Source of the DNA: Bryum argenteum
Taxonomy: Eukaryota; Streptophyta; Bryopsida; Bryales; Bryaceae
Direction of reading: 5' to 3'
Assembly: GCA_037043015.1 (NCBI GenBank)
Contig: CM073324.1
Span: 16,830,597-16,894,596, forward strand
Length of the DNA: 64,000 nucleotides
The position numbers and the translations under genes were made by a program. Below are positions 11,179-63,778 of the stretch, piece by piece; positions within the stretch are counted from its first letter, which is position 1, and each line of letters starts with the position of its first letter. The notes beneath the pieces are model-generated. The model ran no database searches. It saw only the letters and a list, made by a program, of their open reading frames with translations, and was not told where the DNA came from.

Positions 11179-11278
11179 TACTACGAATCTGTTGTAGTCA
11201 ATTGAAGAATCTGGCATCTTTCCGTGGCAAGCGGAGTGGTTGGATTGGGTGAGTTACTGAAAGATGCAGAATCTTTCA

Positions 11279-22168: not shown

Positions 22169-24105
22169 TCTTACTTGCTACAATAGTTGAATCTTCTTTA
22201 AGGCACTTAGTTTTTTTACACAAGAAACTAAGAAATAAATAATCCATTCACTTTGGCCTATGTTCGTCTCCTCCAGAGTCCCAAAGAGGGCCACATCTTA
22301 TTTTTCATCAATTTGAAAATTGTTGGTTTGTCGTGTTCACTTTTCTTGTATTTTTTGTTTTGTTTCCTTGTTATTTCTTACATTTGAGTTTACCAACAAA
22401 GTCAAAGACTCTATCTACTACAGAGAGGAATCTCATTTGAAATCCTAAGCAACTTCAAAGCACACAAAATTTTATGATAGGTGGATCCTGAACTTTTAAA
22501 ATGTGACCTTTATACCCTCCATTCCAAAATGGTATCATGACCAAGTGTTTACGAAACAATCACCACTTTGACGTGATAAGTTTTTTGTGTTGATTGATGC
22601 CCACTTATGGCAATCATGATAAAATTCGTTAATGGATTATTTGAAGTTGGGCTTGTAGGTATATAGAAAATGACGCACTATAATGTTTACACCAACTACA
22701 ACAAAAATCCAAAGCTATTGTGTAATTCATGCGTAGTCCAACCTAATGGACCATTCATTATTTTTCACCACTATCAAGCAAATTACACTAATGATTATGC
22801 CCTCAATAACTTTTTATCCTTTATTAGAACAATCACTAGCTATATTCACAAACCTGCCCCCTTCCATAACTAGTACAAATAAATCTTATGTTTTGAGTTC
22901 TTCTTTCCCCCATCAAACAAGAAATACCTTTTAAGTAAAAAAGATCATCAAAGAACAAACTCTATTCATATCATGTATAGTGTAGCTACATTAACCCCTA
23001 ATCGTCCCATGGGCCCATCATATACGATGCCATATAAGTGTCATTTGCTACCAACAAAAAGCTTTAAGTTGGAATTTCATCAGCTCACTGTGTAAATTTA
23101 TATTCCAACTTCTCTGTTGAGATCAAACCCAATAAAGGTATAGGTCCATTTCAAATACATTGTATTCTAAGGCACTTTGAGACATTTAGTGTTTAAACAT
23201 AAAATTTTGTGTACCATCAAGACCTTCATTTTTCCAGGAATTCTGAGATCGGGGCTATTTTCCGGAGTGGCCGTCATTGTAACACTATCTAATCACTATC
23301 ACTTAAAATCTTCTCAAATGTACATTAAAATAGTACTATGCCACCAAAGCAAAGGACCTAAATTAATACATTAAATCTCTCAGATTATTATACAATTAGG
23401 GTGTTAAGCCTCCACAAACTTGAATTATGCCCTAAGCACAGTACTCATGGTAATTTATAAATTACTGCTGCTGTACTAATCTTGGGTACAATGTTGTAAT
23501 AATACTTAACTTTTAAATGATTTCTATTTGCCACATCAGCAAATTGTTCCAAATTGTTAAGCTGGGTCCTTGGTTATTGAAGAATTTTTAAATGGAATGT
23601 CAGCTGGGTTATTCCTTCATGTATCATGAGGGATTTTTATTATAAGGGTTTTTCCTTTGAGTTAGGAAAGTATAGTAAGAAGTTTAATCGTAGTTCTATT
23701 TTTGTAGTTTTTAGTTGGGATGGTGTAAATTGTTTTAGATTTTTTTTTGGAGGAAAAAGAGTTTGAAAGGAAAATCTTTTGCACCGAAACGTATGTCGTG
23801 TCTTTGTTGCATCTTGAATTGAGCAAAGATTTCTACTGCATGATCATGGTAAATAGTAAAAATCAAGTTGAAATTATGGAATGTATTAAGGAGAAAAAGC
23901 CCGTCAAGAATTGTGTGTTTATGGATTTTGTAGTTTGGAATGAAGAAACTTTTAACTTTTATGTTCTTGTACTTTATTATTAGATCAGGCTTATGTAAAA
24001 TCGATTTTGATACAAGTCATTTGCTTGCAGTGTGATGCATGTTTCAAAACCCAAAAACATGAACTCTTTGCACAGAACGCATGTAATGTACTCTTCCCAT
24101 ATTAA
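22169..24105. other. Upstream flank of the aspartic protease and gene-free DNA
   Basis: AT-rich. The promoter and 5' UTR of the protease should lie just above 22168. An open frame at 23747-23983 (+, 78 aa) has no domain and no context to support it. Confidence 0.4.
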
Positions 24106-24713
24106 CCCTTAAGCGGGCCGAATGTCGAAAAACGACATTTTGGATGACACCAACTTTGGAGAGCCATACCTTCTTCATCCGGACTCCGTTTTGGACGAAA
24201 TCACTTGGGTTGGGTCCCAAATCAAGTTTAGTTCATGTCATAAAAATCTCAGACCCACACAATGAAGTATGAATTAATGGCATGCATTTCAGTGACAGCA
24301 GCCTAGTTTTAGACATTTTTTCCTTTGTAAAATTTAGGGCAGTTTTCACCATTGCAGGGCCATAATTTGCACAAAGAAATTTTTCTCATGGTTTTTTTTT
24401 TGTTCAAGGATGCTACTGAGATGAAGGTGAACAACATTCTAATTGGTGACTTTTTCATTGCAATAAGTCTAATGGTAGCATTTTCACTTTAAAGTGAAAA
24501 TGATGAAATTATGTGATCATTTTTGAGTATTAATACATTATGATCTCGCAATCTATGAAGCCTCATGATTCAAAATTTGACCCACATGATGTTCAATATG
24601 TCTACAACAAGATTGTACGGTTGAGATTTGGATAACACACTTTTACCTCCACCTATGACAATGCTTTTGAGGATGTGTTCATTTTACTACAAATGAGTCA
24701 AACCATTTAGGGG
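24106..24713. mobile_element. TTAA-bounded inverted-repeat element (608 bp)
   Basis: Starts TTAA-CCCTTAAGCGGGCC at 24102 and ends CATTTAGGGG-TTAA at 24717, so the termini match only over CCCYTAA. The left 200 bp (GAATGTC hairpin, ACATTTTGGATGA, CTTCTTCATC, TGGGTCCCAAATCAAGT) recur at 42225-42420 behind the same TTAACCCTTAA terminus, which confirms the left boundary. No transposase frame: non-autonomous. Confidence 0.6.
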
Positions 24714-27700
24714 TTAAGTAAATTTAAGATTGTTTTAATTAAAAAGGAGGCTTGATTTGGAATACAACTCAACAATTCTTGTGAAAATGGACTTCAAACG
24801 AAGATCTATGGCTACATTTTAGCTTTTCATCCAACTTCATGAATTCTAACATTTTGCACATTTAGAGGTCAAAGTTTGGGTTTGGTATATACACAACTTA
24901 ATACGTGTATTGTACAATATGTCACAAGCTGATTTGGCAAAATCTGAAATATATTTTTATAAATGCCACAAATGATAAGAATTGTATATTGAATGAGATA
25001 TTATCTTCTATACAAATTAATAGATAAAAATTGAATTGTAAGTTTGCCAAAATCTCAATTTCAAAATCGATTGAAAATTCAAAGCTAAGACCTGCGTTAG
25101 TTTGTGATAACCAATATTGAATATGACCTACTAAGTATGGGTGTGTAAAAACTCAATTCTTCACTCAAAGTGATTAGATTGAGTAGGATTGGATTGAGTA
25201 TTAGCACAATCGTACTCTGAAGTTAATTATTTGATTGTGACATCTTACATTAGCCCAAATTTTACTTCAATGTCACTTGATTGTTGAGGTTTGACAATTT
25301 GCACTTCAATTGCAATGATTCTAGCAACGAACAATATCAATTTCATGCATGAGTATATCAAGTTCAATCATGTGTAATTTTAGCTCACACAATTTTGATA
25401 GCAAGTAGAATGATGAGGTCTAAAATGAAGTAAGCATCATTGAGAATAATGCAAATAAGTCAATAGTTTGGAGGCTTATATCCTAGATGAAGGCTCCTAT
25501 TTGCATCCAAATTATATTGAAATTAAACAAAATTAGTATAGTATGATTAAAGTTGAATGGTACATGAAACTTGCAAGAACGAGAGATTCACATCAATGTC
25601 ATTACTGATCAAAATTGAAAACAAAAGAGAATAGTATGTACTAAAAAGTTCAATTTATATATTGGATCTAGTTTTAATAGCTACTAAAAAAACATAAAAA
25701 TGTAGAATTTTCAATACAAGGAGAACAAGGTTTTCTGACTATGGTTTTAATCATATTGTCTGAAGCCACTCATTCAAAATTATTTTGAATATGATTATTG
25801 GTAATTGAAAAAAGAGGGTCCTTGTAGTTTGTAGAAAAGCTAAGGTTGGTCAACTTAGGGAAAGCATAAAAGCAACTACGGGGGATTGGAAAGAGCGGTT
25901 TTGCGTTTGCATCAGTGCCAATTAAACCATTGATCGCGCAATTGGAGGTTGCTAATACTATCATAGAGGAGCTTATCACTCAAGCTTAGACAAAAATTTG
26001 GAATTTAACATCATGCTGCAATAGAAAAAAACAATATAGATTTTTATTTTATTTTCCATTTCATAATCAAAATGATGAGGAGTATTTGATTTAATACAAG
26101 GTTTTCTACATGCCCAAACCCTATATGGATCCTTGTATTCCATAAGACCTGCATGTCTACACTATATAATCTTTAAAAAATAATTAAAAATGATTGAAAC
26201 TTCAAGGCAAAAGAATGCTTCGTATCTTAGTTAAATTTGGCCAACCTCTCTTCTTAAGGATAAATTCCATTCGGACAATCTACCGGTATGCTTTCACCAT
26301 TGTATGTTGACATTTCACGTGATCAAGGAATGCAAAGTATCGCAAAAGGTGAAGAAACGCTCTATTGGATGGGTGTCGTGGCAGAAAGATGGAACACCGA
26401 AGAAGATTGGCGAAGTACCTCAATAATAAGCACATGGCACGAAGCAAGTTGCAGATGCAAAAAAAGGTCCCGGCGATGAGATCTAATGTGTTTACTCACT
26501 AGCTGTCGTCCCCTTTGTACTACTACTCCCCATCCAACACTACTACCTATCATTCCCACAATAGCCAAGATCCCATCAATTTAACATATAATTAAACATT
26601 CAAACAAATTTATATATACCTCAATGTAGTGATAATCAACATAACAAGCATGGGACTTAGAAAAATGGTTTGCATTCTTTATTATAATTCTGAAAAGGTT
26701 GCATTGTGTAGCCCTTATGGTACTCCAAGTCCTTTGAAGTACAAACAATTGTTGTCTCATATGCACATAGGTATCAATTCGGTCTAATCTAAAGCTCCAT
26801 CTTCCACAAGGTCCGGGGATTACAACAAGAGAATTATTTCACAATTAATACAAGTCAAAAGATAATTTTGTATATCATTGACTTATAAGTGGATTTCAAC
26901 AGAAAATTGCATATACCATATGCAACTTTGGTATCGCCTCTTTCTCCTAGTCCTTGAGGTAAATTTAAAATTTGGATATGATTGAAGCTCTTATTTAACA
27001 AAATTCTATAGTCATGCAAAAAAATGTTGTAATGCAAACCTCTTGTTATCGCTCTATATTCTAAAGAGAATGATCTTCCTAAGACATGGAGCAAAAGTGA
27101 TATAAGCTTAACAATACTATTTGTGATATTTGCTATTGAAAGAGAAAGTCGAATCTGTGAACCCTTCATAGCAAAACAAGACCTCTTTCCTCAAAAGTCA
27201 TTAACCCACGAGAGTAATAAACTAGAATTCCAAACACTTTTCTAGATGAGTGCCAAAATAATTTAGATTGACCCATTCGACCTAAAGGATTGAACCTTAA
27301 TAGTAAGAATGATTTTGATTTGTGAAACTCACATAGTTCACAAATTGATAGTTGGCGCTAGCTGATATATTCCAACTTTCCTAAGAGAAATTTGACAACC
27401 CAAAATCTTGGTTAGGGTAATGTTACAAAAAATAATTAAAATAGGAGTAGACTCCACAAACTAAAATCAAATTGCTCTACAAGTGGTCTAAGAAATTCCT
27501 CTAATGCCTTCAATATTTCCATATTTCTAAAACAAAAAGACTACGCTAAGAAAGTGTACTAGAGGACGTACAAAGTCAAGTCGACCGCGATGGTACTAGT
27601 GAAAAATTGAGAGTTTCCACCAAGCTTTCCACCAAGAATGACTTATTGTACCACAAGCTATTATGATAAGTCACTCTAGCTTGGTCGAAGGTGCACACTT

Positions 27701-29008
27701 TTCTTCAAGTGTGGTTACAAAAAAAGAGTTACATAAACTTAACCCCAAATGTGGGTTGCAATACTACAATCTTCTCATATGACTTCAAAATTCTTAGAAT
27801 AAAAAAAGAAGAAAAAAAGAAAAAAACAAAGAAAAAAAGAAAAAAACACTCTTAGTAACCAAGTCTTGATAGAGAGAAGACGATTAGGATAGAAGATTTC
27901 AATACTTGTATAGAATGTTAATCCCTAAAGGTGAGTATAGCCCAAATCGGGTCAATCTGACTTAGGCCAACCTATGATTAACTATTATTAAATCACTTGA
28001 AGTTGAAACTTTTTGCAAGTTGTAGAGTTTTCTATACCTTTCAAAAAAGTCATCTCATGCTTCAAAATTCCTCATGCTCTAAGAGATATTCGCAGTCAAA
28101 GTTTTCAAACACTATTTAAAATTGCCGAAAATTGCGGTATATGCTCATTAATTTTATTCTCTAAATCTACCCAAAGCTAACTAAAGCACAAAAACTTCAA
28201 AAATTCACCAAAAATCAATACTATACTTTCTTTTTTTAGAATATGTAGAAAAGGTAGTAAGGCATGACTATAAAATTTCTATAATTAAAAGAACAATCTT
28301 TTACATGTTTTCTTTTAATGTTGAAAGTCTATGTATTTAAATTCTAGCATACCTCCATATGAAAGATCAAGCATTTCGTCAAGTTTTACAGGTCCTATGA
28401 CGGTAATAGTTACACACACATATTCCATACTCACTTGGAAACAAGAATTTGAACCTCATGTCAACTTTCTCTTCAAGAATGGTTATTTCCGCCCCCAAAA
28501 CATTTGACTATCATTCTACAACATGGATTTTTCATTTATTCTTTTCAAACTTTGAACGATATAATCACACAAATGGTGAGAAAAATCTGGTATACATGTA
28601 CATGTCCAACGTAGGTACTAAATCCCACAGTTAGATACTTTTAAAACTTGTCAAAACTCTAAATTTTGCATCTTGCATCAAAAGAGGGCAGTTTTGATGG
28701 CTTTTGACTATTTTGAGGCTGCACATGTGGATGAACAAGACAAGCGTGTTTAGTGCAAACCATTTAAAAATGAAACATCATTCCATCCCCCATTCATTCA
28801 CTCATTCATTCATAAAAATCCCCTTCAATCAATTAATAATTTTTAATAATTTGAGCACACCGATTGTGTGCTGTTGGCTGCCTGCAATGAATGCCAAGCC
28901 ATATTCTATCAAATCAGGCACTCAAGCAAAGGGACATCCAGTTGATATGGAAATTTGATCCCCGTGACCTAAAACAAGCGTATTACAAAATTGTATGGTT
29001 GAGATCTA
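24714..29008. other. Gene-free AT-rich stretch
   Basis: No gene supported. Small open frames at 25770-25979 and 26855-27169 (both -) and 26288-26479 (+) lack domains and convincing splice partners. An A/G-rich low-complexity run lies at about 27799-27848. Confidence 0.35.
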
Positions 29009-29435
29009 AGGTAGAATGACCTTACACCGCTCAAATAAGAGATTTAGCATGGTTGTGGACCTCGTGTGTATTGTTTGTAATTTTTCTTGGATGGGAAAAC
29101 AGGAGGGAGAGTGAATGCAAAAATTTCGAAAATAAAATAGTAAAAATTGAATTTACTACAAATTTTTTGAAGTCAAAAGTGTACATGACCTTAAAGTGAT
29201 CAATAGACTCTCCTTTTTATCCGGCAGACCAGTACTTTGTGGCGCTCACGCATGTAGCTAAAACCGTGCAAAAAGGTGTTAATGAACCATGAACCAATCA
29301 CCTCCCTACACAATTCCGTATCGAGTCACTATGCACCCTCAGATTTCACAACTGTTGTGGGTGCAATAAGGTCCACGCCATGGGCGGTCTACCCTGCGCT
29401 TCTAGGGGGCCGCGCGGTTTAAGGTCATTCTACCT
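29009..29435. mobile_element. TA-flanked inverted-repeat transposon, non-autonomous (427 bp)
   Basis: Termini AGGTAGAATGACCTTACACC at the left and the complement of GGTTTAAGGTCATTCTACCT at the right pair over about 22 bp. Flanking dinucleotides are TA at 29007-29008 and 29436-29437. The terminal word is itself nearly palindromic (AAGGT-AGAAT-GACCTT). No open frame of note. TA flanks suggest Tc1/mariner-like mobilisation, but the terminus is not Stowaway-like. Confidence 0.65.
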
Positions 29436-29446
29436 TAAGTAGTTAA

Positions 29447-29708
29447 CCCCTAAAGGCCCACGGCCGCCGATTCGGCTTTTACGGTCAAGGCCAAAAAAAA
29501 AATTACAGTCAACTTCAAATGTTATGATCTCACATCCAGTGATGATCCAACGGTTGAAAATTTTCACACTACTACCTATGGTAGTCTACTTCAAGATCCT
29601 ACGGTTGAAGTTATCAAAAATTTCCAAAAATATTGGACGTACCCGCATTAGTACATAGTGGTCAGTGTTGGGATTTCAAGCTCCCAAAACATCATGGGCC
29701 TTTAGGGG
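29447..29708. mobile_element. TTAA-bounded inverted-repeat element (262 bp), best-preserved termini
   Basis: Left end TTAA-CCCCTAAAGGCCCA at 29443, right end TGGGCCTTTAGGGG-TTAA finishing at 29712: perfect inverted repeats of 14 bp inside TTAA. No coding capacity. It starts eight bases from the end of the TA-flanked element at 29009-29435. TTAA targets are known for piggyBac and Kolobok transposons; which applies is not decided by the sequence. Confidence 0.75.
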
Positions 29709-30124
29709 TTAACCATGACACTGAGGAGAGTTTTGTTTTGAGAATAATAAATAAACCAAAGCAAATAAGGGTTTTTTTTTTTTTTTTTTTTGGGACAAAA
29801 AAGAACTTTTGCTCTCAAGCTAGACTCAAAATGGTGTGATCAAATTTGAATTGGGAAACTCCCTAGTCCCTAAAAAGAGAAAGTATTCTTGTTCGTTCAA
29901 AAGTCTTTACAACCTCGGAGTACTCTCATGAGGGTCTCTAATTTAGGACTTCACTTCCCGTTTGGGTCATATTTTAGTAAAAAGAAATAAGTGAATTAAA
30001 TATAGATCATTCCAGGCCTGAACATTGATTGCAAAAGTCCTAACTTTGGAATTGCAGTTTCTTCTTTACCAATTTTGGAATTGAATGGTCTCATTCAATG
30101 GATGTTCTCAAACTTCTTCTTATA

Positions 30125-30236
30125 GATTGATAGATAGATAGATAGGAACTCGGGTCCCTTTCTAAGGGGCCGGCGTGAATGAAGTGTCCTTTCGTAATGC
30201 TAATATCCCGATGGCCACCGGACAAGTTCTTCTTAT
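30125..30236 (-). mobile_element. SINE copy E, 5'-truncated, TATC tail
   Basis: A 112-bp reverse-oriented SINE 3' end with an exact 11-bp target duplication TTCTTCTTATA at 30114-30124 and 30237-30247. On the minus strand it runs from CTTGTCCGGTGGCC through GGACACTTCATTCACGCCGG to a clean TATC tail. It starts within about 10 bp of where copy D starts, so the two short copies share a near-identical 5' end. Confidence 0.88.
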
Positions 30237-30707
30237 ACATGTATGTATGTAGCCTAGGATGTATCTCAATAGGAAGCTCTTCTCCTGTAACTACTGGAGT
30301 TCGTTTTTGGTTGCATTGAAGTATGGTGCTATGGATAGTCCATCCAACTATGATGGGGTTCTTTGGACCTCGTTGTATGGGTAACTTGAAGCTCTTACAT
30401 GGGATATGTGGAGTATCTCTAAGGTACTGACGACTATGCAAGAATTAGTATAGTGCTCACCCCAAGAGGGGTAGTATAGTGGTGAGATGTTGTTGCATAG
30501 TAACCTTCACTATGCAGCAACATTAATTAATTAGTCTCAAGTTTTTTTTTTGCCACATGGACCCCTTGAGGGGATGCCACATGGACGCCATGAGTGATAT
30601 TACATATTATTCACATTTCATTCCTTGAGTGAGCCCCGAGCCCCCAGCCCCAACCCTCTTGTACTTTCCATAGAAGGAGGCAGTTACAAACAATAGGGGA
30701 TAAATGT

Positions 30708-30840
30708 CCTCCCCCAAGATCCCTACTCCCAAGACCCTGCCCAAGACCCCGCACCAAGACCCCTACCCAAGACCCCTCACCAAGACCTCCCGCCCCAAGA
30801 CCCCTAACCAAGACCCCCTGCCCCAAGACCCCCTGCTGGA
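30708..30840 (+). repeat. CCAAGACCCC minisatellite
   Basis: Degenerate tandem words of about 12-14 bp built on CCAAGACCCC(T/G), inside the insertion that splits SINE copy F. The open frames on both strands (Pro-rich on +, Gly-rich on -) are products of the repeat and not genes. Confidence 0.85.
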
Positions 30841-30911
30841 CCCTCTTATCCGAATTTTTCGGCGTGAAATGCGGACCGCATTTCTGGAGTATAAGTGAGA
30901 TTTTGGGAGAT

Positions 30912-31074
30912 AGTGGTGCTTGGATTAGATAAACATTTCCAGACAAAAAAAAAGTTGATCTTATCCAAGCGTTGACTATAACAAAACAATGCCTCTTTGC
31001 ATAATAAAGGGATAGGGACAACGTTCTTAACTAAACGTTGATCCTAACGAGGTTGATCTTATCCAAGTACCACT
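30912..31074. mobile_element. MITE-like element with AGTGGTRCTTGGAT termini
   Basis: Left end AGTGGTGCTTGGATTAGATAA, right end the complement AGTGGTACTTGGATAAGAT; total 163 bp, 15-20 bp imperfect inverted repeats. GTTGATCTTATCCAAG also occurs internally at 30953, a direct repeat of the right end. Its right end coincides with the right end of the 599-bp insertion. No target duplication of its own could be fixed. Confidence 0.55.
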
Positions 31075-31165
31075 GTAGTCCCGCCATTGGTGCGATGACC
31101 TTCGAGCATACATCCAAGGATAGGTCAAACAAAGACTCCTTTGCAGCCTTGAAGCGATGTTAAAT

Positions 31166-32537
31166 GCCTCATTCATGAACGTAGAATATTAATATCGTGT
31201 TGGACATATGAATCATATGGCGGAACATCAACTCTAGAATGATATTGCGATTGTTCACAAACTCAACAAGAAAAGATCTCTATGATCTCTATGAATGCAT
31301 CTCCACAAGGAGAATCCAACATGTAATTTTTTGATTTCTAAACCCTTCAAATATTGATGAAGGTAAAGCATTTACCAAATCACAAAATTCCTATTTCCTC
31401 AGATTTGCTTTGACTTTCAATACAATTTAAATATGATAATAAATAGTTACAGGAGCAATCACTTTGTACCACCTATTTATAGGTATAATCATAGTAAGGA
31501 CATTACACTGCAATGAGCCTTACACGAAGCACCTCGGCTGCATGCCCAATTCAATAAGGAATGAGATGAACTTAGAAATTTCCAAAAACTTATATACTTT
31601 ATTACAATCATTCAATTATCTAAGACTAAATTGCCAAACTAGCCAACACTCCACATGAGTTTCTTACAAATTTGTGTGATGGAACAAAATAGTGCCCATT
31701 GCACATGCAAGACCATTCGTAACAATAAATATGAACATATTCTTTAGACATACCAGTAGATTTGTTTACATAAAAGATACACCGCTTCAAGAAAAAAGAA
31801 GAAAATCATACTCTTACGCCATTTACTTCCACAAAAATATCTAGGCGTAAGTACACTTTACAATCTTAAAATTCTTGTTCCACATGGATTGGCTCTTTCC
31901 AACGCTATGATTGCCAATATAGAACAAAAACATTACACCTAGAGATCATGAATGTTGTTATGACCTCCTCGTAAAGCGAAAAGCGCACCACGTCAGCCCC
32001 ACTAGGTCCCGGGAAGGAGGAACGTACCTCCCAGTCAGCCGCACTCGGTGGGGGGAATGGAAGGTACCTTCCAGTCAGTCTGGAGGGGAATGGAAGGTAC
32101 CTACCCGAGTACCGGTGCCGCCAAATGGAACTTACCAATCAATTACCCCATAAAGTCACTCGTCATGGAGCCGACCCCCCTATTATTACGCCCATTAATA
32201 TTGGAGAGCTCCCGCATACGCATACGGATACAGATACGGATGAGATACGGTATTCAAACCTAGCGGTATACGTCGTCTTCTCCGTCCTCGCCAGAACGAA
32301 GTCCCCCTCCCCCTATTCAGCCATTTGTTGTGTGAGAGTTTCCGGCAAGGTCCCCGTAGCGCGTATTAGCGGACCGGTTTAGTGATAATCCATTTTGAAG
32401 ATTGCTGGTATTGAAATAGATCTCGATTGGGAGTCGCGGAGAGAGATTGAGAAATTTGCTTGTGCGGGGTTTGAGTGTGAGAGATCTGGGATCGTGGATT
32501 TCGTGCAATTTCGTGTTAGGGTGAGGGGAATTGGAAG
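31166..32537. other. Intergenic DNA and 5' flank of the LSD1-type gene
   Basis: Mostly AT-rich to about 31970. At 31995-32105 three imperfect repeats of about 38 bp carry GGAATGGAAGGTACCTTCCAGTCAG-like words with GGTACC palindromes. At 32205-32250 ATACGG is repeated. These lie within 550 bp upstream of the LSD1-type start codon and may be promoter or 5' UTR repeats; role not shown. Confidence 0.4.
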
Positions 32538-33140: not shown

Positions 33141-33709
33141 CATCGCCGTCATCGTGATCTTTGAGGTTGTGTTGTTGTACTAAGTCTGGAAAACAACAAA
33201 AAAAAATATATAAAAAAGAAGGCTAGGAGGTGGTGGTATTATCGATTATGAGAGCCCGATTTCAAGCAGGTGAAAGAGGACTTCAGCGGTACTTCGGTGG
33301 TGTCTGACGAGCTCCGATTGGGTAGTATGGTGTATGCATAGTGGTGGGTTTAGGAATTGCTGCGGTAGGTTCAATTGTGCACTTCAATGCCAAGTTCCAT
33401 GTTACTTCTACTCTTCTCCTCCGTGTCCACTGCTTTCAGATCTGTTGTAAATCTCCCTTGTGGCTCCATTTTCAATGCGAGTTCTATGATAGCGTTCTCA
33501 TCGTACTTAGGACTCTGTCCTACGTTTTGTTGGAACTTTGCCTCCTGAGGCGGATCAAATTTTGTGATGGCAGCCAATTGAGCTCATATAATTGGTGTAA
33601 CCTGTCTCTGGCATGGGTAATGTAATGATCCATATCACGCCGAAGGCTGTGAGATGTTTTTTGAGTAGCTTTTGTAGTTGTTGAGTCGTTCATGCCTACT
33701 TAAGAGCCT

Positions 33710-40462: not shown

Positions 40463-41133
40463 GGCGATTCTCGGTACCCAAAATCAGCCCTTGTTCCGTC
40501 TCTCAGCCGCTGCCATACGAGCTGGATGCACAATGCAGGCTGTTGGGGGGGCCGGCAGGAACAAAAAGCTGGCGACAGTGACAGGAGAGAGTGTGGCGTG
40601 TGTACACAAGCTGGCTTGGTTATGATGATTTGCTTGATGGGTTGCTTGGTGAGTGAAGGGAGACGAAACTGTTGCGGTGAAGGAAGGGCTGATTGTTGCG
40701 ATTGTTGCGAAGAAGGGCGATGGCGTGTTGGTAGCGCACGGGAGGCAATAGTCATGCGATGATGCGCGTTTGCACGCGACCGCGGCAAAGGCATTGGATG
40801 CTTGTGGCGGTCCGAGTAGTCCAGATTCGCCACTTAGACTGGGAATCTAGCCTATCTTTACGCTCACTTGCAGTAACCCATGCGTTTGAATGATTACCGC
40901 TTTGGAGCACCTGAAGGAATGATACTCTGTTTTGGAATCAGACGGAACCAAGGTTACCTGCTCGAAACCCACACACAGCATGCCGTGCTAATCAGCCAGG
41001 GAATGAGATTCCTTCTTTCCATCCATGAACCTGAATGTACATGCGAGCTAGATTTTAGGAATCTAGAGTGAACGGTTCTTAAAATGCTTGTGAGCTTTTA
41101 CTTTATGAAATTTTGTGTGTATCAAAAAATTCT
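40463..41133. other. Upstream flank of the CAT gene
   Basis: GC-rich to about 40800, fitting a promoter/5' UTR of the leftward gene. The 125-aa and 128-aa open frames on opposite strands here are mutual shadows in GC-rich DNA. Nothing else seen. Confidence 0.45.
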
Positions 41134-41820
41134 CATAAGCGCCCATGGGGTCTGAAACGGGCAGCCAAATATCGGATTACAGCAACTTTTGGACCTGGGC
41201 ATCATGAATGGACCTATCAATGATGAGCTTGCAACCTCCTACAAGGTTAGGTACAACTCCAACCTACCTACCACAATCCTTTCAAAGCACAAAATCACTC
41301 ACACATATTGTAATTTGAATTGTAAATTTTCACTTTTTGAATGGATCATAAGGAGGACACCAGTTTGGTATAAAAACATAAATGAAAGTTGAGTTGAGCG
41401 AGAGGTACAATGCAGATTCTGTCGAGGAAAAGCCCCTTGGACTTGCTTGGGTGTTTAACCCTTAAACGCCCAAGCAAGCCCGGGGGGCTTGATTCCAACG
41501 GAATCTTCCCTGTAGCTCTCACTGTACTCCACTTTTCACTTATATTTTGATGTCAAACTGGTCACCTTCTTATGATGCATACAAAAAGTGAAATTTCACA
41601 ATTCAAATCACAATTTGTATGAATGATTTTGTGCTTTGAAAGGATTGTGGTAGGTAGATTGAGGTTGTACATAACCTTGTAGGAGGTTGCAAGCTCATCA
41701 TTGATTGGTCTATTCATGATGCCCAAGTTCAAAAAGTGTACTATTCATGATGCCCAAGTCCAAAAGATGTTGTGATCCAATTTTGGGTTGCCCGTTTTAG
41801 ACCCCATGGGCGTTTAAGGG
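41134..41820. mobile_element. Large foldback: two TTAA-type elements head to head
   Basis: The right arm is a 362-bp element, TTAA-CCCTTAAACGCCCA (TTAA at 41455-41458) to TGGGCGTTTAAGGG-TTAA (41821-41824). The left arm (41134-41454) is the same sequence inverted. Matching blocks include ACCCCATGGGCG with its complement, CAAGCTCATCATTGAT, CTTGTAGGAGGTTGC, GATTTTGTGCTTTGAAAGG and CCCAAGCAAG. I judge the arms roughly 80-85% alike. The right arm has an extra 32-bp tandem duplication (TATTCATGATGCCCAAGT). The outer left terminus has decayed. A transcript through it would fold into a hairpin of about 330 bp. Confidence 0.8.
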
Positions 41821-42224
41821 TTAAGGGTAAGGGACACCCTCCTTGGTACTATGCCTATGCATGAAGATCGTCACTATGTCAAAAATAGTGAGAGATTCCT
41901 CTATCTGAAAATTGGCTGGTTATTGAACGGGTTACTTTAGCCCTTCTACAGAACTAAGGCCTCAAAATTAAATAGGAATGAGGTTCTATGGGAACCTTTT
42001 GTTATTTTTAGAGAATAACATATATGGGATATAACAAATTTGAAAGTAAGATTCAGGTTTGAATTTTATAAGATTTTTTTAATATAACAGTCGTACATCA
42101 TAGGCCAATTCAACATAGGCCAATTCAACACCCTGTTGTTAAATAATTATAGCTTATTGCTTTCTTGACAGTTCAATTTCCGTATTACTTCTGGTTCTTT
42201 TGAGTACCAATATTGTGTTCTTAA

Positions 42225-42420
42225 CCCTTAACCGGGTGGAATGTCAAAAACAACATTTTGGATGATACTAGCAACTTTAAAGAGCCATAACTTCTTCATC
42301 TAGAGTTTGTTTTGGATGAAATAACTTGATTTGGGTCCCATATCAAGTGTAATTCGTGTGGTACAAATCACACACTCATTTAATGAAGTGTAAATATATA
42401 GCATACATTTTTGTGAAGGT
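42225..42420 (+). mobile_element. TTAA-type element, left end only
   Basis: Begins TTAA-CCCTTAACCGGGTGGAATGTC and is similar over about 200 bp to the left part of the element at 24106-24713. No right end was found; it is probably truncated. Confidence 0.6.
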
Positions 42421-42841
42421 AGCTCTTCTTCTTGAGGTTTCAAACATGGGGCATGTGTTTATCATTGTGAGGCAACTACTAGAAATTATATAGTCATGAT
42501 GGTAAGAAATACACTTATTCCTAAGGTGCAATGCACAATATATTCCTATGTATGTGCTCTAAGAGCATCGCGTATGGTACTAGGGTAAATGTGCACTTCG
42601 AACGTCGTTTTGCGTAGCACTTTCTGAGACCCTAAGCTTGCCGGGACTAGAAAACCTGGCAACTGAGGGTAGAGTTGTAGCAAATGACCAAAAATTTGAC
42701 GAAGACCTCGCGTATTACTAACCAAAGAGTCAAGAAAGGAAGCGACTACTTCGTGTCTAGTTCTCTACTACTAAATATTTCACACGTAATAGAACTAACA
42801 AGGGCTTGTGGTCTTGCTGCTACAAGGAGAACGAGAACTCA

Positions 42842-54238: not shown

Positions 54239-54243
54239 TTCTC

Positions 54244-54343
54244 TGCTTGATCAATTGGCTCATCACCCTGCTTGATCAATCGGCTCATTACCCTGCTTGA
54301 CCAATCGGCTCATTACCCTGCTTGATCAATTGGCTCATTACTC
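54244..54343 (+). repeat. 25-bp tandem repeat in the DUF569 3' UTR, four units
   Basis: Units close to TGCTTGATCAATCGGCTCAT-TACCC begin six bases after the stop codon. TGATCA palindromes recur every 25 bp. The neighbouring 54344-54990 shows nothing but 3' UTR-like sequence. Confidence 0.9.
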
Positions 54344-54990
54344 TGTTGATCAATTGTGTGCTGACATGATGTATCGCTGTGATTTACTGCAGTTGGAAGA
54401 ACGTTGTCACTTTCAGGAGCTCGTCGATGAACTTGATTGTTTACTCAGCTCAGCCTTGGCACTGCCCTTGTGTATAATAGTCTGTAAGGTTTTTGATTCC
54501 CTGTAAGAGTAATTTTTGTACACTATGCTAATGGAGAAAGGATACAAGTAGTTTCCAGGTACCCACACCTGGTTTGTAGAGATTATTATTGGTTTCGATG
54601 AGACATGTAGAGAGAACCAACGCTCAGTGTTGGCCTTTGAGGCTTACTTCATGTTTATTTGACCTCACATGTTCAAGTTTTAAGAATTTGAGGTTTCAAT
54701 TTTGACTGTTAGTTGAGTTTTGGTTTTGAGTTCGGAGAGGGTGAGATGGGAACTTCTGAATCTGTCCAAACTGGTTGAATGCACTTTCTGCATCTGAGAT
54801 GTTGAATTTTGAGTGGACAAATTTCCATATTGAACCTGGATGTCGAGTTTTGGATCAAAAGGTCTTCGAACTGCCTCCTAAAAACATAATCTCTGCAAAG
54901 TTGAATTGCAAATGAACCGATTATAATAATGGTGCCATTTGCTACAGAGATGTTACTACTGTGAGCAAGGGGAAATTAGAATAAAGCTAG

Positions 54991-55165
54991 TGTAAGTGGA
55001 ATTATCATTTTTGGATTTTTTTACAGTGATTTATTAATTTTTGAAATTAGAAATATAGTTGTCCTTAAAATGGTGCTCCCAAAAGTGACCCTATAATATT
55101 TGCGGCGGGTACATGGTCTTGTTGTATGCAGAAGCTATCATGTACATGTGAGTAAAGATTATTGA
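54991..55165 (+). repeat. Dispersed repeat, partner of 13418-13612
   Basis: Shares ordered blocks with 13418-13612 (GTAAGTGGAATTATCATT, CCCTATAATATTTGC, GCTATCATGTACATGTGAG). This copy lacks the internal duplication seen in the partner. Confidence 0.6.
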
Positions 55166-55305
55166 CCATTTGGCTGTACCCTGAATAGAATAAGAAGGTT
55201 ATATATACATGTTGGAAGGGTTTGAGTTACTGTCGTGTTTCGCTTGAGATGCTCTTCCGGTCTTTATTTTCTGTCACGAAAAGCTTAACGCATACTCGTT
55301 GTTAA

Positions 55306-55800
55306 CCCCTAAAGGCTCAAGAGACTTGAAGAAAAAGGTAAATGTGTTACAAAATATGTGTTTTTTAACACTTATGAAGAAGTGCTTTAAAGACTATATG
55401 AAGATCTTAATCCCTGCATTACATCAATATGGTTAAATTTCCTGGGAAATAGTAACTGTTTGTTCTACAATGAGATAATAGAGACTAAACCTTTGAAAAT
55501 CAATGTAAAATACGCTTTCTATGATAAGTAACTAGAAATTAATATGATTGGCTCAAATCATATATCATATAATAATATTGAGAGAGGCATTCAATAACCT
55601 GAAAGGAACACCAATAGTTATCCAAAACAATAAGTTTTGTAACAATGAGAAAAGCTTGCCATGTTTGTGTTTGTTTGAAGGCTTGTTGTGAACAATTTCT
55701 GAATCCAAACAAGGTTCAGTAATCGGATGTGGTTCTCAACTCACCAAACTTCGTGAAATTAAAAATAATAAATCCAAAAGAAAACCTTTTTAGCCATAAA
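55306..55800 (+). mobile_element. TTAA-type element, left end and body (subfamily shared with 62135 and 63067)
   Basis: Begins TTAA-CCCCTAAAGGCTCAAG (TTAA at 55302-55305). Body blocks shared with the two copies near 62-63 kb include CTTATGAAGAAGTGCTT, ATATGGTTAAATTTCCT, CTTTGAAAATCAATGTAAAA, GAGAGAGGC, GTTTGTGTTTGTTTGAAGGC and CAACTCACCAAACTTC. No right TTAA end was found; it fades near 55800. An A-rich run follows at 55935-56010. Confidence 0.7.
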
Positions 55801-56288
55801 GTAGTCGACTAGTCTCTTAAGAGGATAAAAGTCATTTAGAAGTTTGGCAATCTAATTGCAATATCGTAGCTTAAAAACAAACATTCGTATGCATGTTTCT
55901 TCTCGTACTCATTGGCACCGAAGAAGAGAACAAAAAAATTAAAAAATTTTAAAAATTTTAAATTAAAAAAAAAAAAAAAAAATTAAAGAAAAAAAGAACA
56001 AAAGAAAAAATTGGTATCACAATGTCCAAATTGTCCTCAAAACTTCTCAAAAGAATACCACGTTCCCACAAGGTCCTTCTCAAATCTCAACTTTGGAGTA
56101 CTCGGAGGCTCCAAGAGCCAGCCCATTTGCTTTGCAAGGCTGAGTGTGGTCATCCCGGAAAGGGACTTTTACTGCAAGGCCGAGTGTTGTCTAGGGACGA
56201 GAGGCACGGAATGGAGAATCACAGAATTGTCGTCACGCGTCACAATGAGAGTGAAGACTAGTAAACGACGCAGACGCTGTTTACAGCC

Positions 56289-59200
56289 ATGAGGATGTTG
56301 CGCTGCAGCAGCAGCTCCACCGTGATCCTTCTCTTGACATCACCCACCATCGCAACTTCCAGTAGAGCTGCACTCATCTCACTGTCAAACCAGTCCTTTT
56401 CATTGTCGCGGAGGGGGGCCCGCTGCCATCACTCCCTCTTGTCCAGGAACAGCATCATCACTCCTCCTGGGAGCGTCATTCGTGAACAACGACGTCCCTG
56501 GCGCAATTCAGCAATTCGCTGCCGCGCCATGGAATCCGCGGGTAGCGCCTTCGACTTCGCTGCGAATGGAGGTAACCCATGCGCTCATTGTACCATTGAA
56601 TTGAAGCTCTGATTCTTTGCTACTGTATCATGATTCGCGACGAGGAATTTGGAGCTCAAGTCGATAGAGAATCGATAGGTGCAGATTTTGATCTTCTGAA
56701 ATTCGAATTGGAGACACTGATAGCCTAGCTAGGGTTCCGAGACACCCCACACTTGAATTGAATACTTCGGAATTAGGATCTTTCTACGGTAGTTCGCTGC
56801 CGCGCTATGGAATTTACCGTTTGCAGCTTCGTCTTCGCAGCAAATGGAGGTAACCTGTACGCTTAATTGTACCACCGAAGCATTCAATCCGCTTGCAGTG
56901 ATCGAATTGTCCCTCTGAAGTCCTGATTCGTAGCTACCGTATCATGATTCGTGACCAGGAACAATTCGGAGCTTAATTGAATTTTAATCGACGACAATCC
57001 TGGAATAGATAGGTGCAGAATCTTGATCCTCTGAAGCGGAGAGACTGGTAATCGAGGGGTGTGAGACACCCCATACTTGAATTGAATATTTCGGAATTAG
57101 GAGTTTAACATCGTCCGACGGTAGTTCGCTGCCGCGCCATGGATTCCACGGTTAAGCAACAACATATCTGCAGACACTGGTAACCTAGGGTTCCAAGACT
57201 CCCCACGATTGAATTGCATACTCCAGAGTTTGAGTCGAACTCATGGATGCTTGGAATTTACGTGCAGGGGGGCAGCAGTCGTGCAAGGTGGCGGTGATAG
57301 GAGCAGGAGCAGCAGGGCTAGTGGCAGCACGGGAGCTTCTCCAAGAGCACCACGACGTGACAGTGTTCGAGCAGACAGAGAGTGTAGGCGGGGTGTGGGT
57401 ATACGACCCAGAGATCGAAAAGGAGGATTTGCTAGGGACTCGTAACGCTCGGAAGCGAGTGCATTCAAGCATGTACGCGTCGTTGCGTACCAATCTGCCT
57501 CGTGAGATCATGGGCTACACTGATTTCCCTTTCCTTCCGAGACCCGGAGGCGATTCTCGTCGCTTTCCAGGCCACGCCGAGGTCGCCTCTTACTTGCAGG
57601 CATTTGCAGAGTATTATGGTCTTTTGAACTTGGTGGAATTCTCCACCGTTGTAGAGTATGTTGGTAGAAATGAGAGTAGAAATTCGTGGAAAGTGAGGAC
57701 GAGACGAAGCGATGAGACCAAGGAGGAGCTTTTTGATGCCGTGGTTGTTTGCAATGGACACTACTCTGAGCCCAAACTTGCCGACATCCCAGGTACCCCC
57801 AATTCCCACCAATGCTTGTTCTTTGTACATGGGTGAGTCAAAACCCTTTTACAAGTGAAAACACTGACGAGAAGCTCAACACTGCAAGCCGATAGTTCAT
57901 CAATATTTCCTAATGAAGAACGAGCTCCTGAAAGATTCAAGTAGATACATGCTTTTTGTCTAAAGCCACTGCTATTAGATCACTTGATTCTCTCAAATTT
58001 GAAACTCCTGAAAAAATATCTTCTATAGAGCTTCAGTCTACGGTGCTTGGAAGTTGATTAAAACCGGTTTGATCAATTTCATGTGCAGGGATAAGCAAAT
58101 GGCCGGGAGTGCAGATGCATAGCCATAATTACAGGGAGCCGAGCATGTTCGCTGATAAGGTAGTGAGAGAATACCAGTGTCATTCTGATAATTTTCGTTC
58201 TTGAGCTGCAATTACTCATACAGAGATTGAAGAACTTGAATTTTTTATTGCATGTCAGATTGTGGTTGTGATAGGGAATGCCGCCAGTGGGGAGGACATT
58301 TCAAGGGAAATAGCTGAAGTGGCGAAAGAGGTACACATAAGCGGACGTTCTTGGAGCTCGTCGATCAACTTCGGTGAGCCTTCAGGAGAGCACAGCAACA
58401 TCTTTCCTCATTCTACGGTACCTTCATCAATCCAACGCTTGTGCACTTTCTAGTAAGAAACTAAAACCTAGTGAATATTTTAATGTGGGATTGTGCTTAC
58501 ACGCAGGTAGAGTGCGCTTGTGAGGACGGAACTGTCAAGTTTAAAAGCGGCGGTTCTGTATCAGCAGATATTATACTATTCTGCACAGGGTGAGCGAAAT
58601 CACTTTTAGTTTCACTATTGTTCGAATCTAAATCTGCTCAGATGATTTCTTACATGGCCGGTGGGTGCTTGTGATTGCAGTTACTTTTATTATTTTCCAT
58701 TCTTGGATACACAAGAAGTGGGTGTGGAAGACAACTGTGTTGGTCCTTTGTATGAGCATGTGTTTCCGCCTTCACGTGCTCCGTCTCTTTCCTTCGTAGG
58801 GTTACCATGGAAGGTACTGTTACGTTTCATGATTTCGATATTCATTATTTGATTGCTTTTTCAAGCTTGTTGTGACTGATGCAGTTTTGGTGCAGCTAGT
58901 ACCATTTCAGCTGTGTGAGCTTCAGTCTCGGTGGATAGCCATGGCGCTTTCAAGGAAGGTCACCTTACCTTCCTCGCAGGAGATGCTCAAGTCGGTTCAC
59001 GACTTTTATGACCGCCTTGAAGCTTCCGGAAAACCAAAACGTCTTGCTCATAACATGGCTACTACTCAGGTAGTAGCATTTTGATTTTAGACCCCTCCGT
59101 CATCTATGTTGAAGTGTTTATAATACAAATAGTGTTATTATCTACTGATCCAGTACTTCTCTTGGTGCAGTACGAGTATGATAACTGGCTTGCAGAACAA

Positions 59201-59398
59201 ACGGGAAGTGCGCATGTAGAGGAGTGGAGGATCAAGATCTATGAAATTACCTCGAGAAACAAACGACAGAACCCGGAGACGTACCGAGATGAATGGCCAG
59301 ACGAGGAGTTGCATCAGAAAGCTAACGCAGTCCTTAAAGAACAAGACCAAATTATCAACTCTGGAAGGTGGGATACTGCTGTTCGATCTTATCGGTAG
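56289..59398 (+). CDS. Flavin-containing monooxygenase, FMO GS-OX-like, with alternative first exons
   Basis: An FAD- and NADPH-dependent monooxygenase of the plant class that S-oxygenates soft nucleophiles such as methylthioalkyl glucosinolates; the substrate here is unknown. Catalytic exons: 57268-57792, 58089-58159, 58259-58417, 58507-58589, 58681-58813, 58896-59069 and 59171-59398. The FAD motif is VIGAGAAGLVAARELL, the FMO signature is WPGVQMHSHNY (FxGxxxHxxxY with Trp for Phe), the NADPH motif is VVIGNAASGEDISREIA, then FCTGYFYYFPFL. Three starts are possible. (a) An ATG at 57243 reads straight through: 465 aa, the usual family length. (b) A first exon 56289-56571 ends in a good donor and joins the acceptor at 57266-57267 in phase: 551 aa with a Ser/Arg-rich leader like a plastid or mitochondrial transit peptide. 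(c) A duplicate exon 56807-56849 (MEFTVCSFVFAAN) joins the same acceptor in phase without the leader. Which is used cannot be told here. Confidence 0.88.
56510..57240 (+). repeat. Tandem triplication of the FMO first-exon end and donor
   Basis: Three diverged units start with TTCGCTGCCGCGCYATGGAWT at about 56516, 56791 and 57124. Each carries an ATG and a GGTAACC donor-like site. Units 1 and 2 also share TACCGTATCATGATTCG-type and ATAGGTGCAGAWTYTTGATC blocks, and CTTGAATTGAATA. Unit 3 is short, and its donor is out of phase. The triplication occupies the first intron of the FMO gene. Confidence 0.85.
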
Positions 59399-60467
59399 TG
59401 CTTCGAATCCATATGAACTGGACAGGTTTTTAACTACAGTTCGTTGCTTGAAAATTGCAGAACACCTTTGAAATCGAGCATATGATGGAGTGCAAGCTCT
59501 GAGTCGAGAGGACTATCAAGTTTTAGGGCAATTGAGGGACTCGAACTGAGCAGACGTGTTATGGATTACAACACAGTTCATCGGCATTGTGCAGGGTTCA
59601 TAATTGTGTATTTTAGTGATTTCGTACATACAAAATCATGTCTTGTGAAGACGGAAATAAAGGATCAACAATGTGCCATTCAATAACTTGTTGCAATTTT
59701 CAGCATGACTTGGTAATATTTCATACCTATGATGAAAGCATTCACTCAGTCACTTAGTATGAAGTAATTAGCAAGTGAGGTGTCATTCCAAAATGGAAAA
59801 TGAGGATGTCCAATTTGAACCTTCATGTATCTAAGGTATCTGAAGTGATACCCCGTGACTAAATTTACTCCATACGACACAAACAGTGTCTCTACTTGGA
59901 CTTCAAGATTTAATATTGAGCATCGAAGGCTTTAATCACTAACAAACATATGAACCACTTCTACTTCCAAGTAAGTACATTCATGTTTCAAAGGACAGGA
60001 AGTGAAAGATTTGGCAAATGAAATGATTTTGTATGAACTGAATGATAACTATTACAATAAATTCTTCGGTGGTGCACCGCAGTAGCAATGACCACGTTTG
60101 AGTTTTAACATTCAAAGCAATACTTGATGATCAGGACAAGTAAGCTGAAGTGCCCGAGGTACTAACACCAACATCTAACTTGAGGAAGATTCAGCATTGG
60201 AAGCCAGTTGCAGAGAAACCCTAAACCTCAAAGCTGAGACTCATCACACAATTAGAATCGACGTTGCCAAATTCAAGATAACTAGACCGATAACTCCATT
60301 GCTAGTGAAGTCGGAAATTGCTCGATACACAGAGGGAAGCACGTAATTGCTGAGAATTACTGTAAAATGAAGAATTCGACGGATAAGGCGATAACAATAC
60401 AGTTGTCCAAGAGAGATTCCTACTGGCAATTGAATTCTTGCAAAACCCTAGGAGAAGAAAAAAAAAA
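59399..60467. other. Intergenic, between convergent FMO and RPS17 genes
   Basis: The FMO 3' UTR probably ends near 59660 (AATAAAGG at about 59648). The rest is AT-rich, and the RPS17 3' UTR comes in from the right. No gene seen. Confidence 0.5.
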
Positions 60468-60920
60468 CTAAGCAGCCACAGCGGGGGTATCACTCTCACT
60501 CTCCAATGGAGGCAAAGTGGGAGCAGCGAGCCTCTCACCGCGGGGGCGCCCGACCTTGCGCTCCACGACAATGAACGACTTGGTCTTGCTAATAGGCTTG
60601 CACTTGACGAGCGTGACAATATCCCCGACGTTGCACTCGTTCTCGGGGTCATGCGCGTGGTACTTCTTGGCGCTCTTGATGCGCTTCAAGTACTTGGAGT
60701 GAGGCGCGATCCTGGTGACTTCCACGGCGATGCTCTTGTCGGCGGAGGAGCACACCACGCGGCCCTGAATCTTCTTCATGGCCTCAATCCGCAACGGGGC
60801 CGGGGCTGCCGCGACTGTTGGCGCATTGGAAGCGTTCAACTTCATTCCGGTGAAGGAAGAGTTGAGCGACAATTGCGTGCCATTGCTCACTGATAGCGAA
60901 GCTCCGGTCATCGACGCCAT
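60468..60920 (-). CDS. RPS17: Plastid 30S ribosomal protein S17 (bS17c), nuclear-encoded
   Basis: An intronless 150-aa frame. The mature S17 domain binds 16S rRNA early in 30S assembly. The first about 45 residues from MASMTGASLSVSNG are Ser/Ala/Asn-rich, fitting a plastid transit peptide. The S17 core follows: KKIQGRVVCSSADKSIAVEV, HSKYLKRIKSAKKYHAHDPE, CNVGDIVTLVKCKPISKTKS, FIVVERKVG; these match the family's VVS-x-KMxKTxxV, Y-x-KxxxxTxKxxAHD and GDxVxIxExRPLSKxKxW pattern. The C-terminal 15 residues (LESESDTPAVAA) are an acidic extension. The start chosen is the Met nearest the transit-like sequence; the frame stays open upstream to 61121 but that part looks like 5' UTR. Codon third positions are more GC-rich than the surroundings, as expected for a well-expressed gene. 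Confidence 0.96.
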   Translation of the reverse strand: MASMTGASLSVSNGTQLSLNSSFTGMKLNASNAPTVAAAPAPLRIEAMKKIQGRVVCSSADKSIAVEVTRIAPHSKYLKRIKSAKKYHAHDPENECNVGDIVTLVKCKPISKTKSFIVVERKVGRPRGERLAAPTLPPLESESDTPAVAA

Positions 60921-62134
60921 TGCTGGAGGATTGTTGCAACGATGAAATGGCAGCAATTCGAAGGGGAGAGAGAGCGTGTTCCTGCTGTTTGGATAAGGAA
61001 GTTGAGACCCGGGGTTCCGATGGGTCGGGTTGCCGATGTGAATGCCTGGTGGGGTTCGGCACCTCATCCACATGGACCCTATCTGTTTTTGGATGAACTG
61101 ATGGGTTCCCGTTTCGTTCATCCAAAAATTGCATCGATGTCACACAAGTCGGGGTTGTGGAAATAGGTCCCTCCTAGGACGAGGAGGGGATTGCAAAAAT
61201 AAAGGTCCTCACTAAGATAACAACGTGAAAATTTGAACACTATTAGGAAGCGACCCGCAGAGGGTCGTCTAGATTGTCAAAGATTAGTTATTAAACTGAC
61301 AAAGATTTGTGTAATTTATGGCTTTACCACCTTGTATAGTCTGAATGGTCATCGGATTGTTTATGGTGTTACTTAAAATTGGTTCTATGATTAAATGCAG
61401 TAAGCACATCAAAGAAAGGAGGCGATTTGGGATGGTGGGGCGATCATGAACGCATACTTGATTGTGTGATTAAAGATGGTGAACTCAATAACTTGAAAAT
61501 CCTCCAAAATTGATATTCAGAACAAGTATACTTGGTATCCCTTGGTATCTTGCATTCAAGAAAGAGGAAGCAATGTGACGTTCTATATAAATGTGAGTCT
61601 AGTGAAATTTGAGAGTTAAAGAAGGAAAAGATGGATCACAACTGGAAAAGAGGTTTGAAGGAAATGGTGCTCGAGGCATTGAGTACAAAGACAAGTGCTA
61701 GTGCATTGCAAGTAAGATGTGAATCAAAATCTGATTAGTCAAGAGGTCAATGTCAAGTATCCACAAGTTTCGAAAGCACCTTAATTCTAGTTCCTAACTG
61801 GTTGCTACTTAAAGTTACTCAAGCTACTCGCTAGGTTCTAAATGACACCGATCTACATCGCTTCATAATTTTTTGAACATCAATCTTAGCAAGGTTGATT
61901 GTAAACTTGTAAAGGACTCAAGGTTTTTACTTGTAAAGATGTGAGGCAAAAAACACTATGGAAATACATAACCCCTTATACACATTGGAGCAATAAAGCA
62001 GATTTACATTGCTTGTGAATAGCAATACTAATCTTGTCTACATATCAATGCCCAAATAAGAATCAATTTCAGCAAGCTTGTTGACGCAATCGCCACGCCA
62101 TGCAACAACACTTCATCAATCGTTGTGATTTTGA
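60921..62134. other. RPS17 promoter side and gene-free DNA
   Basis: The first 250 bp are the upstream region of RPS17. The rest is AT-rich without recognisable genes. Confidence 0.4.
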
Positions 62135-62673
62135 TCCCTAAAGGCCCAAATGGTTGAAGAAAACTTAGATGTGTTATAAAATATGCATTCTTTAACACTT
62201 ATGAAAAACTGCTTAAAAAGGCAATATGAAGAGCTTAAGCCCTGAATTAGATCGATATGGTTAAATTTCCTCAAATAGTAACTATTTGTTTTATAATGAA
62301 TAAAAAAGACCAAATCTTTGAAAATCAATGTAAAATGTACATCCTATCTTTAGTGAGTGGAATTTAATATGATTACCTTAATCACATATTACATGATAAA
62401 ATAGAGAGAGGCCACCAGTAACTTGCAAGGACAACCATTGGTTTTCCATATGATAGAATTTTTAAGACTAAGAAATCCTTACCCCGTTTGTGTTTGAAGG
62501 CTTATTGTGAACAATTTATAAATCCAAACGAGTTTTGATAAATTAAATGTGGATTCCAACTCACCAAACTTCTGGAAAGTAAATAAACCTTTGAAACAAA
62601 GTCTTTTCTTGGTTGGATACAACTCCTCAAGATTTGCAATCGACTATAAAATGGTTGATTGAGCTCGTAGGGG
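62135..62673 (+). mobile_element. TTAA-type element, nearly complete, termini mutated (about 539 bp)
   Basis: Left end TTGA-TCCCTAAAGGCCCAAATGG, right end GAGCTCGTAGGGG-TCAA; both outer TTAAs carry one change, which fits an old insertion. Body shared with 55306-55800 (same orientation) and with 63067-63578 (inverted). No coding frame. Confidence 0.7.
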
Positions 62674-63066
62674 TCAAGCCAATTCTTCTTTTACCATATT
62701 TCATGAATCAATATGTCATTCCACAAATGTTCCACCCTCAGTCAGGAACCTCAGCTTCAGTGATAACGATCGCATGCAACATTAACAAAGTACACTCGGA
62801 TATCAGCCGATAACAAATTCCTCTTGAAAAGGTTTTTTTTCAAAAGTTTAAAAATTAATTGTGAACTCGAAAACAATCGAATTGCCCAGGGTGTAAAAAC
62901 TAAGATTTGCTCTAAAAATTTCAAAATTGGAATTTGACATTGCAACTTTTTTTCCACACACACCTTGTAGTGTAGAAAGTACCATGTACAATTTTCAGGC
63001 AAAATTATTGATATAATACCTTTCTCTAGCATGCCCAAACAACAAATAGCATGTTTGACCTTTTAA

Positions 63067-63578
63067 CCCCTAAGAGCCCAATCAACCATTTTATGATCGA
63101 GCCCCAGTTTTGAGGAGTTATACCCCGAAAAAAAGAGTTTTATTTTGGATTTTTTTTTTGAACATCCCAAAGCTTGGTGAGTTAGGAACAACATCCAATT
63201 TACATAACCTTGTTTGGATTCACAGATTGTTCACAAGAAGCCTTCAAACACAAACAAGGCAAGGTCTCCTTAGAGTAAGAAAACTTACTATTTTGGAAAC
63301 TACTAAGGTTCCTCATAGGTTATTGGTGGCCTCTCTCTATTTTATCATATAACAAATGATTTTAGCAAATTTCCAAATACTAATAATAGAAATATCATTT
63401 TATATCGATTTTCAAATTTTTACTTTTTAAAATTAATCATAAAACAAATATTACTTATTTTAGGAGATTTAACCATAGAGATTCAATTTAGGGTTTAAGG
63501 TCTTTGAAGCGCTACATCACCAAGGTTACAAAATCCATCTATTATAACACAACAAATAATAGATGGGGGCTTTCGGGG
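63067..63578 (-). mobile_element. TTAA-type element, complete, inverted relative to the copy at 62135 (512 bp)
   Basis: TTAA-CCCCTAAGAGCCCA at the left (TTAA 63063-63066) and GGGGGCTTTCGGGG-TTAA at the right (63579-63582). On the minus strand the body aligns with 55306 and 62135 (CTTGTTTGTGTTTGAAGGCTT, GAGAGAGGCCACCA). The copies at 62135 and 63067 face each other about 390 bp apart. Confidence 0.75.
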
Positions 63579-63778
63579 TTAAGGGTTAAGCAAAAAATTT
63601 AAAAAAAGGGTTGGTATGAAGGAGTAATACTTCAAACTCCTTCAAAATATAAACATCCCGCACGTATCCACTAACATCTCTCTGTCTTGCAATTTTGAAC
63701 AATTAATCTTAAAGTCCTCAAACTCAAATGGCATTCTTTATGATTCACTCAACTCCAACCGTCAAAGCGATCTGAAAG

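Follow-up and report, generated by a model that had tools for sequence, protein, structure and literature searches.

The window analyzed here, the whole stretch of 64 kb from the moss Bryum argenteum, lies on a contig of 28.7 Mb (C4) in an assembly of 258.8 Mb and 25 contigs. Among its genes there are matches to the zf-LSD1, DUF569, S17, FMO-like, mitochondrial carrier and amino-acid permease families. In the same window there are 11 exact TTAACCCYTAA sites where 0.14 would be expected, and no shuffle of the sequence reached 11. The swarm of elements with these ends that the first-pass annotation had described is real, and genome-wide the motif is enriched over controls as well. None of the 22 open reading frames of at least 130 aa in the window overlaps one of these elements; they are short and multi-copy, and together these are the features of MITEs. 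The window also has repeats of other kinds. A 22-base unit stands in tandem in 14 copies at 10064-10369, and two neighboring short inverted-repeat elements with TACTCCCTYTGT ends lie at 11072-11182 and 11305-11410; we take these two to resemble plant Stowaway (Tc1/mariner) MITEs.

Element coordinates are counted from TTAA to TTAA, with both TTAAs included. The element at 24102..24717 (+ strand), a non-autonomous element of 616 bp that we assign to group I, begins with TTAACCCTTAAG... and finishes with ...TTTAGGGGTTAA. The left part of a second group I element is found at 42221..42430 (+ strand, end approximate); it is 79% identical to the one at 24102 over 197 aligned columns, and we could see no clear right end for it. 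At 29443..29712 (+ strand) there is a MITE of 270 bp that consists of the left 38 bp and the right ~230 bp of an autonomous piggyBac element. A 431-bp segment at 29007-29437, with 24-nt inverted ends (96%) that read TAAGGTAGAATGACCTTA..., stops 5 bases before it. Group III has three members: one with a single clear end at 55302..55800 (+ strand, right end approximate), 77% identical to the next over 459 aligned columns; one of 547 bp at 62131..62677 (+ strand), in which TTAA and termini have decayed on both sides; and one of 520 bp at 63063..63582 (− strand relative to 62131), which BLAST matches to the other two at 72-73% in opposite orientation. This last element sits at a TTAA beside a GGGTTAA remnant (63583-63589), and removing it on paper regenerates TTAACCCTTAA; it apparently inserted inside another terminus. 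We also find an unpaired terminus, TTAACCCCTAA at 22991..23001 (+ strand), which the first-pass list of elements did not have and for which no good partner was seen.

The first-pass annotation had listed two arms at 41134-41820. A single palindromic element at 41134-41824 does not describe what is there. The arms are really two opposed copies of one family, an intact 370-bp element with TTAACCCTTAAACGCCC at both ends (41455..41824, + strand) inside an older, decayed copy (~41130..41458, − strand) that is 84% identical to it over 275 bp and has left an end piece at ~41825-41831. The younger copy sits at a TTAA in the terminal repeat of the older one, and when 41455-41824 is removed on paper, the joined flanks restore the terminal repeat of the family, apart from one substituted and one missing base. 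For the other elements that had been listed, five are complete once this one is counted (24102, 29443, 41455 and 63063, together with 62131 and its decayed ends), and those at 42221 and 55302 have one clear end each. By BLAST, the elements fall into the groups 24102 with 42221, 41455 with its older neighbor, and 55302 with 62131 and 63063, and the 29443 element has only its end in common with 55302. To this extent, the earlier proposal of at least three internal groups that share only their termini stands.

The termini are not a peculiarity of the window. Counting both strands of the genome, TTAACCCCTAA occurs at 17,696 sites (317 for the reversed-pattern control) and TTAACCCTTAA at 11,206 (428 for its control). 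When collected together with their inverted partners, perfect 12-base ends at a distance of 230-260 bases form 973 pairs genome-wide, and the control forms 0; these pairs represent one size class only, and they are not an exact count of elements because a nested insertion can lie between two paired ends, as happens at L050. The boundaries of the window elements are borne out by sister copies at other sites in the genome. Among the best 40 of 5770 candidates, 24102-24717 is matched over its full length (1-616) in 40 rows at 99-100%, led by the window copy, and 2 further rows are partial; among the best 40 of 1141, 29443-29712 is likewise matched in full (1-270) in 40 rows at 99-100%, again led by the window copy, and one row covers 50 bases; and for 62131-62677 the best 40 of 1134 comprise the window copy and, at 77-79%, 39 further copies, which start at base 1, 6 or 8 and finish at 541-547. 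All of these counts set a minimum for copy number, and the percentages, being those of best matches, are biased upwards. Of the 66 pairs among 12 copies fetched from the 29443 family, 36 are identical; as those copies are the best-scoring ones, they tell us that a young set exists and do not give the average age of the family. The 62131 family is more diverged. Taken together, the identities suggest that some families moved recently.

With regard to the insertion site, the genome has 156 exact copies of the inner left end from the 29443 family, of which 150 are preceded by TTAA and 6 are not. The 12 fetched copies, the one in the window included, differ in the 20 flanking bases displayed on either side. 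At L039 a copy abuts the end of another element, and the TTAA is common to both; L043 has the same arrangement, with one mismatch in the end of the other element. At L050, a 249-bp element (200-448) interrupts another member of the family at a TTAA. Joining its flanks around one TTAA produces a 34-mer that is present uninterrupted 231 times in the genome (control 0). The paralogous empty sites at L050 and at 41455-41824 both indicate that there is one TTAA before insertion and two after it, in agreement with the single-TTAA target of the first-pass annotation.

A candidate source for such movement is present in the same genome. The piggyBac transposase domain PF13843 (DDE_Tnp_1_7) produced 775 first-look candidates, and all 116 that were scored are above the cut-off, with a best E-value of 7.4e-82; the same domain has no match in any of 14 control genomes. 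We read 9.1 kb around each of the 20 best loci. In 14 of them the transposase lies between paired, TTAA-bounded, inverted CCC-rich ends that are 4469-6461 bp apart. Both ends start with TTAACCC in all 14, and with the full TTAACCCYTAA in 12; the two exceptions are L023, with TTAACCCCTCAA, and L024, with TTAACCCCAAAG. Of the two superfamilies proposed earlier from the termini, piggyBac is thus the one that fits the groups tied to transposases, and it now comes with transposases that carry the same termini. The remaining six loci (L018, L020, L022, L028, L030 and L033) have no accepted end pair within ~4 kb. The sole pair at L020 is AT-rich and lacks CCC ends, and we did not accept it; for L020, L022 and L030, a single end with no more than one mismatch is visible when the loci are read at shorter length (L005, L007 and L015).

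Open frames of 885-1125 aa are found at 7 of the 20 loci (L017, L018, L023, L024, L026, L027 and L031), counting from the first Met, and true start codons and introns may differ. Each of the seven proteins scanned matches PF13843, with E-values from 1.3e-82 to 2.8e-78. The L027 protein aligns with the structures PDB 9c0f (E-value 1.2e-26) and PDB 6x67 (5.5e-26). Counted on the alignment, it has a D opposite D268, D346 and D447 of 6x67, which we take to be the catalytic aspartates. By motif, the first aspartate is present in all 20 frames, the second in 19 and the third in 17, and the missing ones fall in short frames (L022, L028 and L035). The predicted catalytic DDD triad is conserved. A Cys/His-rich tail is found in 11 of the 20 frames, and no Pfam zinc-finger family is reported for the seven proteins at an E-value of 0.01. 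In the catalytic region, 19 loci (L018 was left out) form four clades, with identities of 37-47% between and 69-98% within them; the exception is L022, at 56% to its nearest locus. Eight loci from a single clade have 91-96 residues between the first and the second aspartate and L018 has 100, compared with 78-79 at the eight further loci measured. The longer spacing, of 91-100, is that of L018, L019, L021, L026, L027, L029, L032, L033 and L034.

How close is the relationship between the short elements and the long ones? For the MITE at 29443-29712 it extends well into the interior. In BLAST, its bases 40-270 match the final 240 bp of L029 at 89% and the final 244 bp of L021 at 88%, its bases 1-38 match the initial 38 bp of L034 at 92%, and all three of these loci have a PF13843 match. 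These matches to transposase elements at both ends imply that the MITE is an internal-deletion derivative. In 41455-41824, the first 34 bp are 88% identical to one end of L016/L017, and the last 40-43 bp are 79-80% identical to the other end, in the right order. For groups I and III the link is almost entirely by the termini. Only 22 terminal bases of the 63063 element find a match, at 91%, in the right end of L026/L027. Besides the terminal motif, the 24102 element has a single weak match to L021, over 38 bp (E-value 0.003). Apart from that weak match, a BLAST comparison of groups I and III with the 14 transposase elements reports nothing internal beyond the termini. We infer that group I (24102/42221) and group III (55302/62131/63063) are also piggyBac. 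The first-pass annotation had proposed non-autonomous families driven by one transposase. Non-autonomous they are, as the deletion derivative at 29443 exemplifies, and the single transposase gives way to several transposase clades.

We propose that the elements in this window are non-autonomous piggyBac transposons of a land plant, MITEs along with further short derivatives, moved by cut-and-paste with the transposase of their relatives, and we give this reading a probability of about 0.94. In the mechanism that we envisage, longer relatives in the same genome would make a piggyBac transposase, which would bind the CCC-starting ends of the short elements and excise them, presumably seamlessly. 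The excised elements would then be reinserted at TTAA, which would leave a TTAA on both sides. That the transposases of this genome act on the elements of this window, and more generally that these MITEs are mobilized by a related autonomous element, is what the shared ends point to.

The near-terminal nature of the tie is where a different reading of groups I and III could enter. Kolobok, which has a different transposase, inserts at TTAA too, and these groups could belong to it, or to some other TTAA-targeting superfamily that came by chance to have similar short CCC-rich ends. We regard this as improbable, given that the very motif that these groups carry, TTAACCCYTAA, is found at both ends of 12 out of the 14 transposase elements with paired ends, and that the 22 terminal bases of 63063 are shared at 91% with L026/L027. 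A more radical proposal is that the termini are not transposon ends at all, given that CCCTAAA resembles the plant telomere repeat, and that they arose by chance or from telomere-like sequence. Their enrichment over shuffles in the window and over reversed patterns in the genome leads us to reject such an origin, to which we attach a negligible probability. Full-length sister copies keep the same boundaries, the flanks differ between copies, and Tandem Repeats Finder reports no TTTAGGG-type array in its 33 rows for the window.

One could also suspect the host. piggyBac is best known from animals, and its natural range has been described mostly from animals, fungi and protists, so that contaminating animal or fungal DNA could have led to a misidentification of the elements or of the plant. 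The window, however, is part of a 28.7 Mb contig and has the genes named at the outset between its elements, and the genes for light-harvesting proteins and PsaF are found on large contigs of the same genome. A light-harvesting protein of this genome scores 466 bits against PDB 8htu, 464 against 7xqp and 446 against 8c29; 8c29 is outscored as well by 9vfj, of which one chain reaches 543 bits (302 in its best domain) and another 455. These scores point to a land plant, probably a moss. With this gene content between the elements and contigs of this size, we hold contamination to be very unlikely.

In comparison with piggyBac (PDB 6x67/6x68) and piggyBat (9c0f), the elements described here have the same TTAA target, ends that start with CCC, a DDE_Tnp_1_7 domain and three aspartates, and the Cys/His-rich tail of 11 of the 20 frames may be a further likeness to the superfamily; the difference is the plant host. 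They are also larger, at 4.5-6.5 kb with frames of up to 1125 aa, compared to the 2472 bp of a well-defined piggyBac element in PMC10813416, which also gives an aspartate spacing of 78-85 for animal clades, as opposed to 91-96 in one clade here and 100 in L018. Short non-autonomous families assigned to piggyBac are reported for corals (PMC2872659) and for the ciliate Blepharisma (PMC9942856); ours are alike in that respect and differ in host. The plant MITEs of the Tourist, Stowaway, Mutator, hAT and CACTA types are alike in being short, high-copy and bounded by inverted ends in a plant host, and differ in their targets and transposases.

In plants, PiggyBac is one of seven angiosperm MITE superfamilies in PMC10004981, is named within the plant class II superfamilies in PMC10794571, is mentioned in the paper on the Stipa draft genome (PMC8319324), and has 1230 pieces (0.00%) in a C-fern table (PMC6890710). 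A review (PMC12595863) has neither 'piggyBac' nor 'TTAA', and neither 'piggy' nor 'TTAA' occurs in the main text of a survey of 207 plant genomes, four of them bryophytes, that recognizes five MITE superfamilies (PMC12550479). The present finding suggests that plant MITE surveys limited to five superfamilies can miss a class that is abundant in some lineages. In the literature searched, which covered few subscription journals, we found no report of a land-plant piggyBac expansion with transposases. The superfamily is already known, and piggyBac in plants is not unheard of; what is new is the host, the scale and the presence of several transposase clades, and the apparent youth of some families, as judged from their identities, adds to the interest. 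piggyBac is a major genome-engineering tool, and with the numerous open frames for transposases and the near-identical short elements, a native plant piggyBac system would become testable. This genome would permit tests of how plants tolerate or silence piggyBac, and of how piggyBac arrived.

More tentatively, and at somewhat less than even odds, we suggest that this moss harbors a young and perhaps active native radiation, with at least four piggyBac clades, many short derivatives, tens of thousands of ends and long open frames, and that it is strongly under-represented on the largest chromosome, possibly a U or V sex chromosome.

Elements are strongly under-represented on that largest contig (C1, 44.1 Mb, 17.0% of bases). 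The contig has 27 of the 973 paired ends where 166 would be expected, an expectation that, like the binomial test, assumes independent and even insertion. It also has 2 of the 231 34-mers, 1 of the 156 exact left ends, and 5 of the 116 scored transposases. None of 35 light-harvesting matches falls on it, and the contig is perhaps poor in genes, or perhaps a U or V sex chromosome. Clusters of light-harvesting genes, with near-equal scores, are found on C5 (16.2-16.4 Mb) and C6 (9.32-9.37 Mb).
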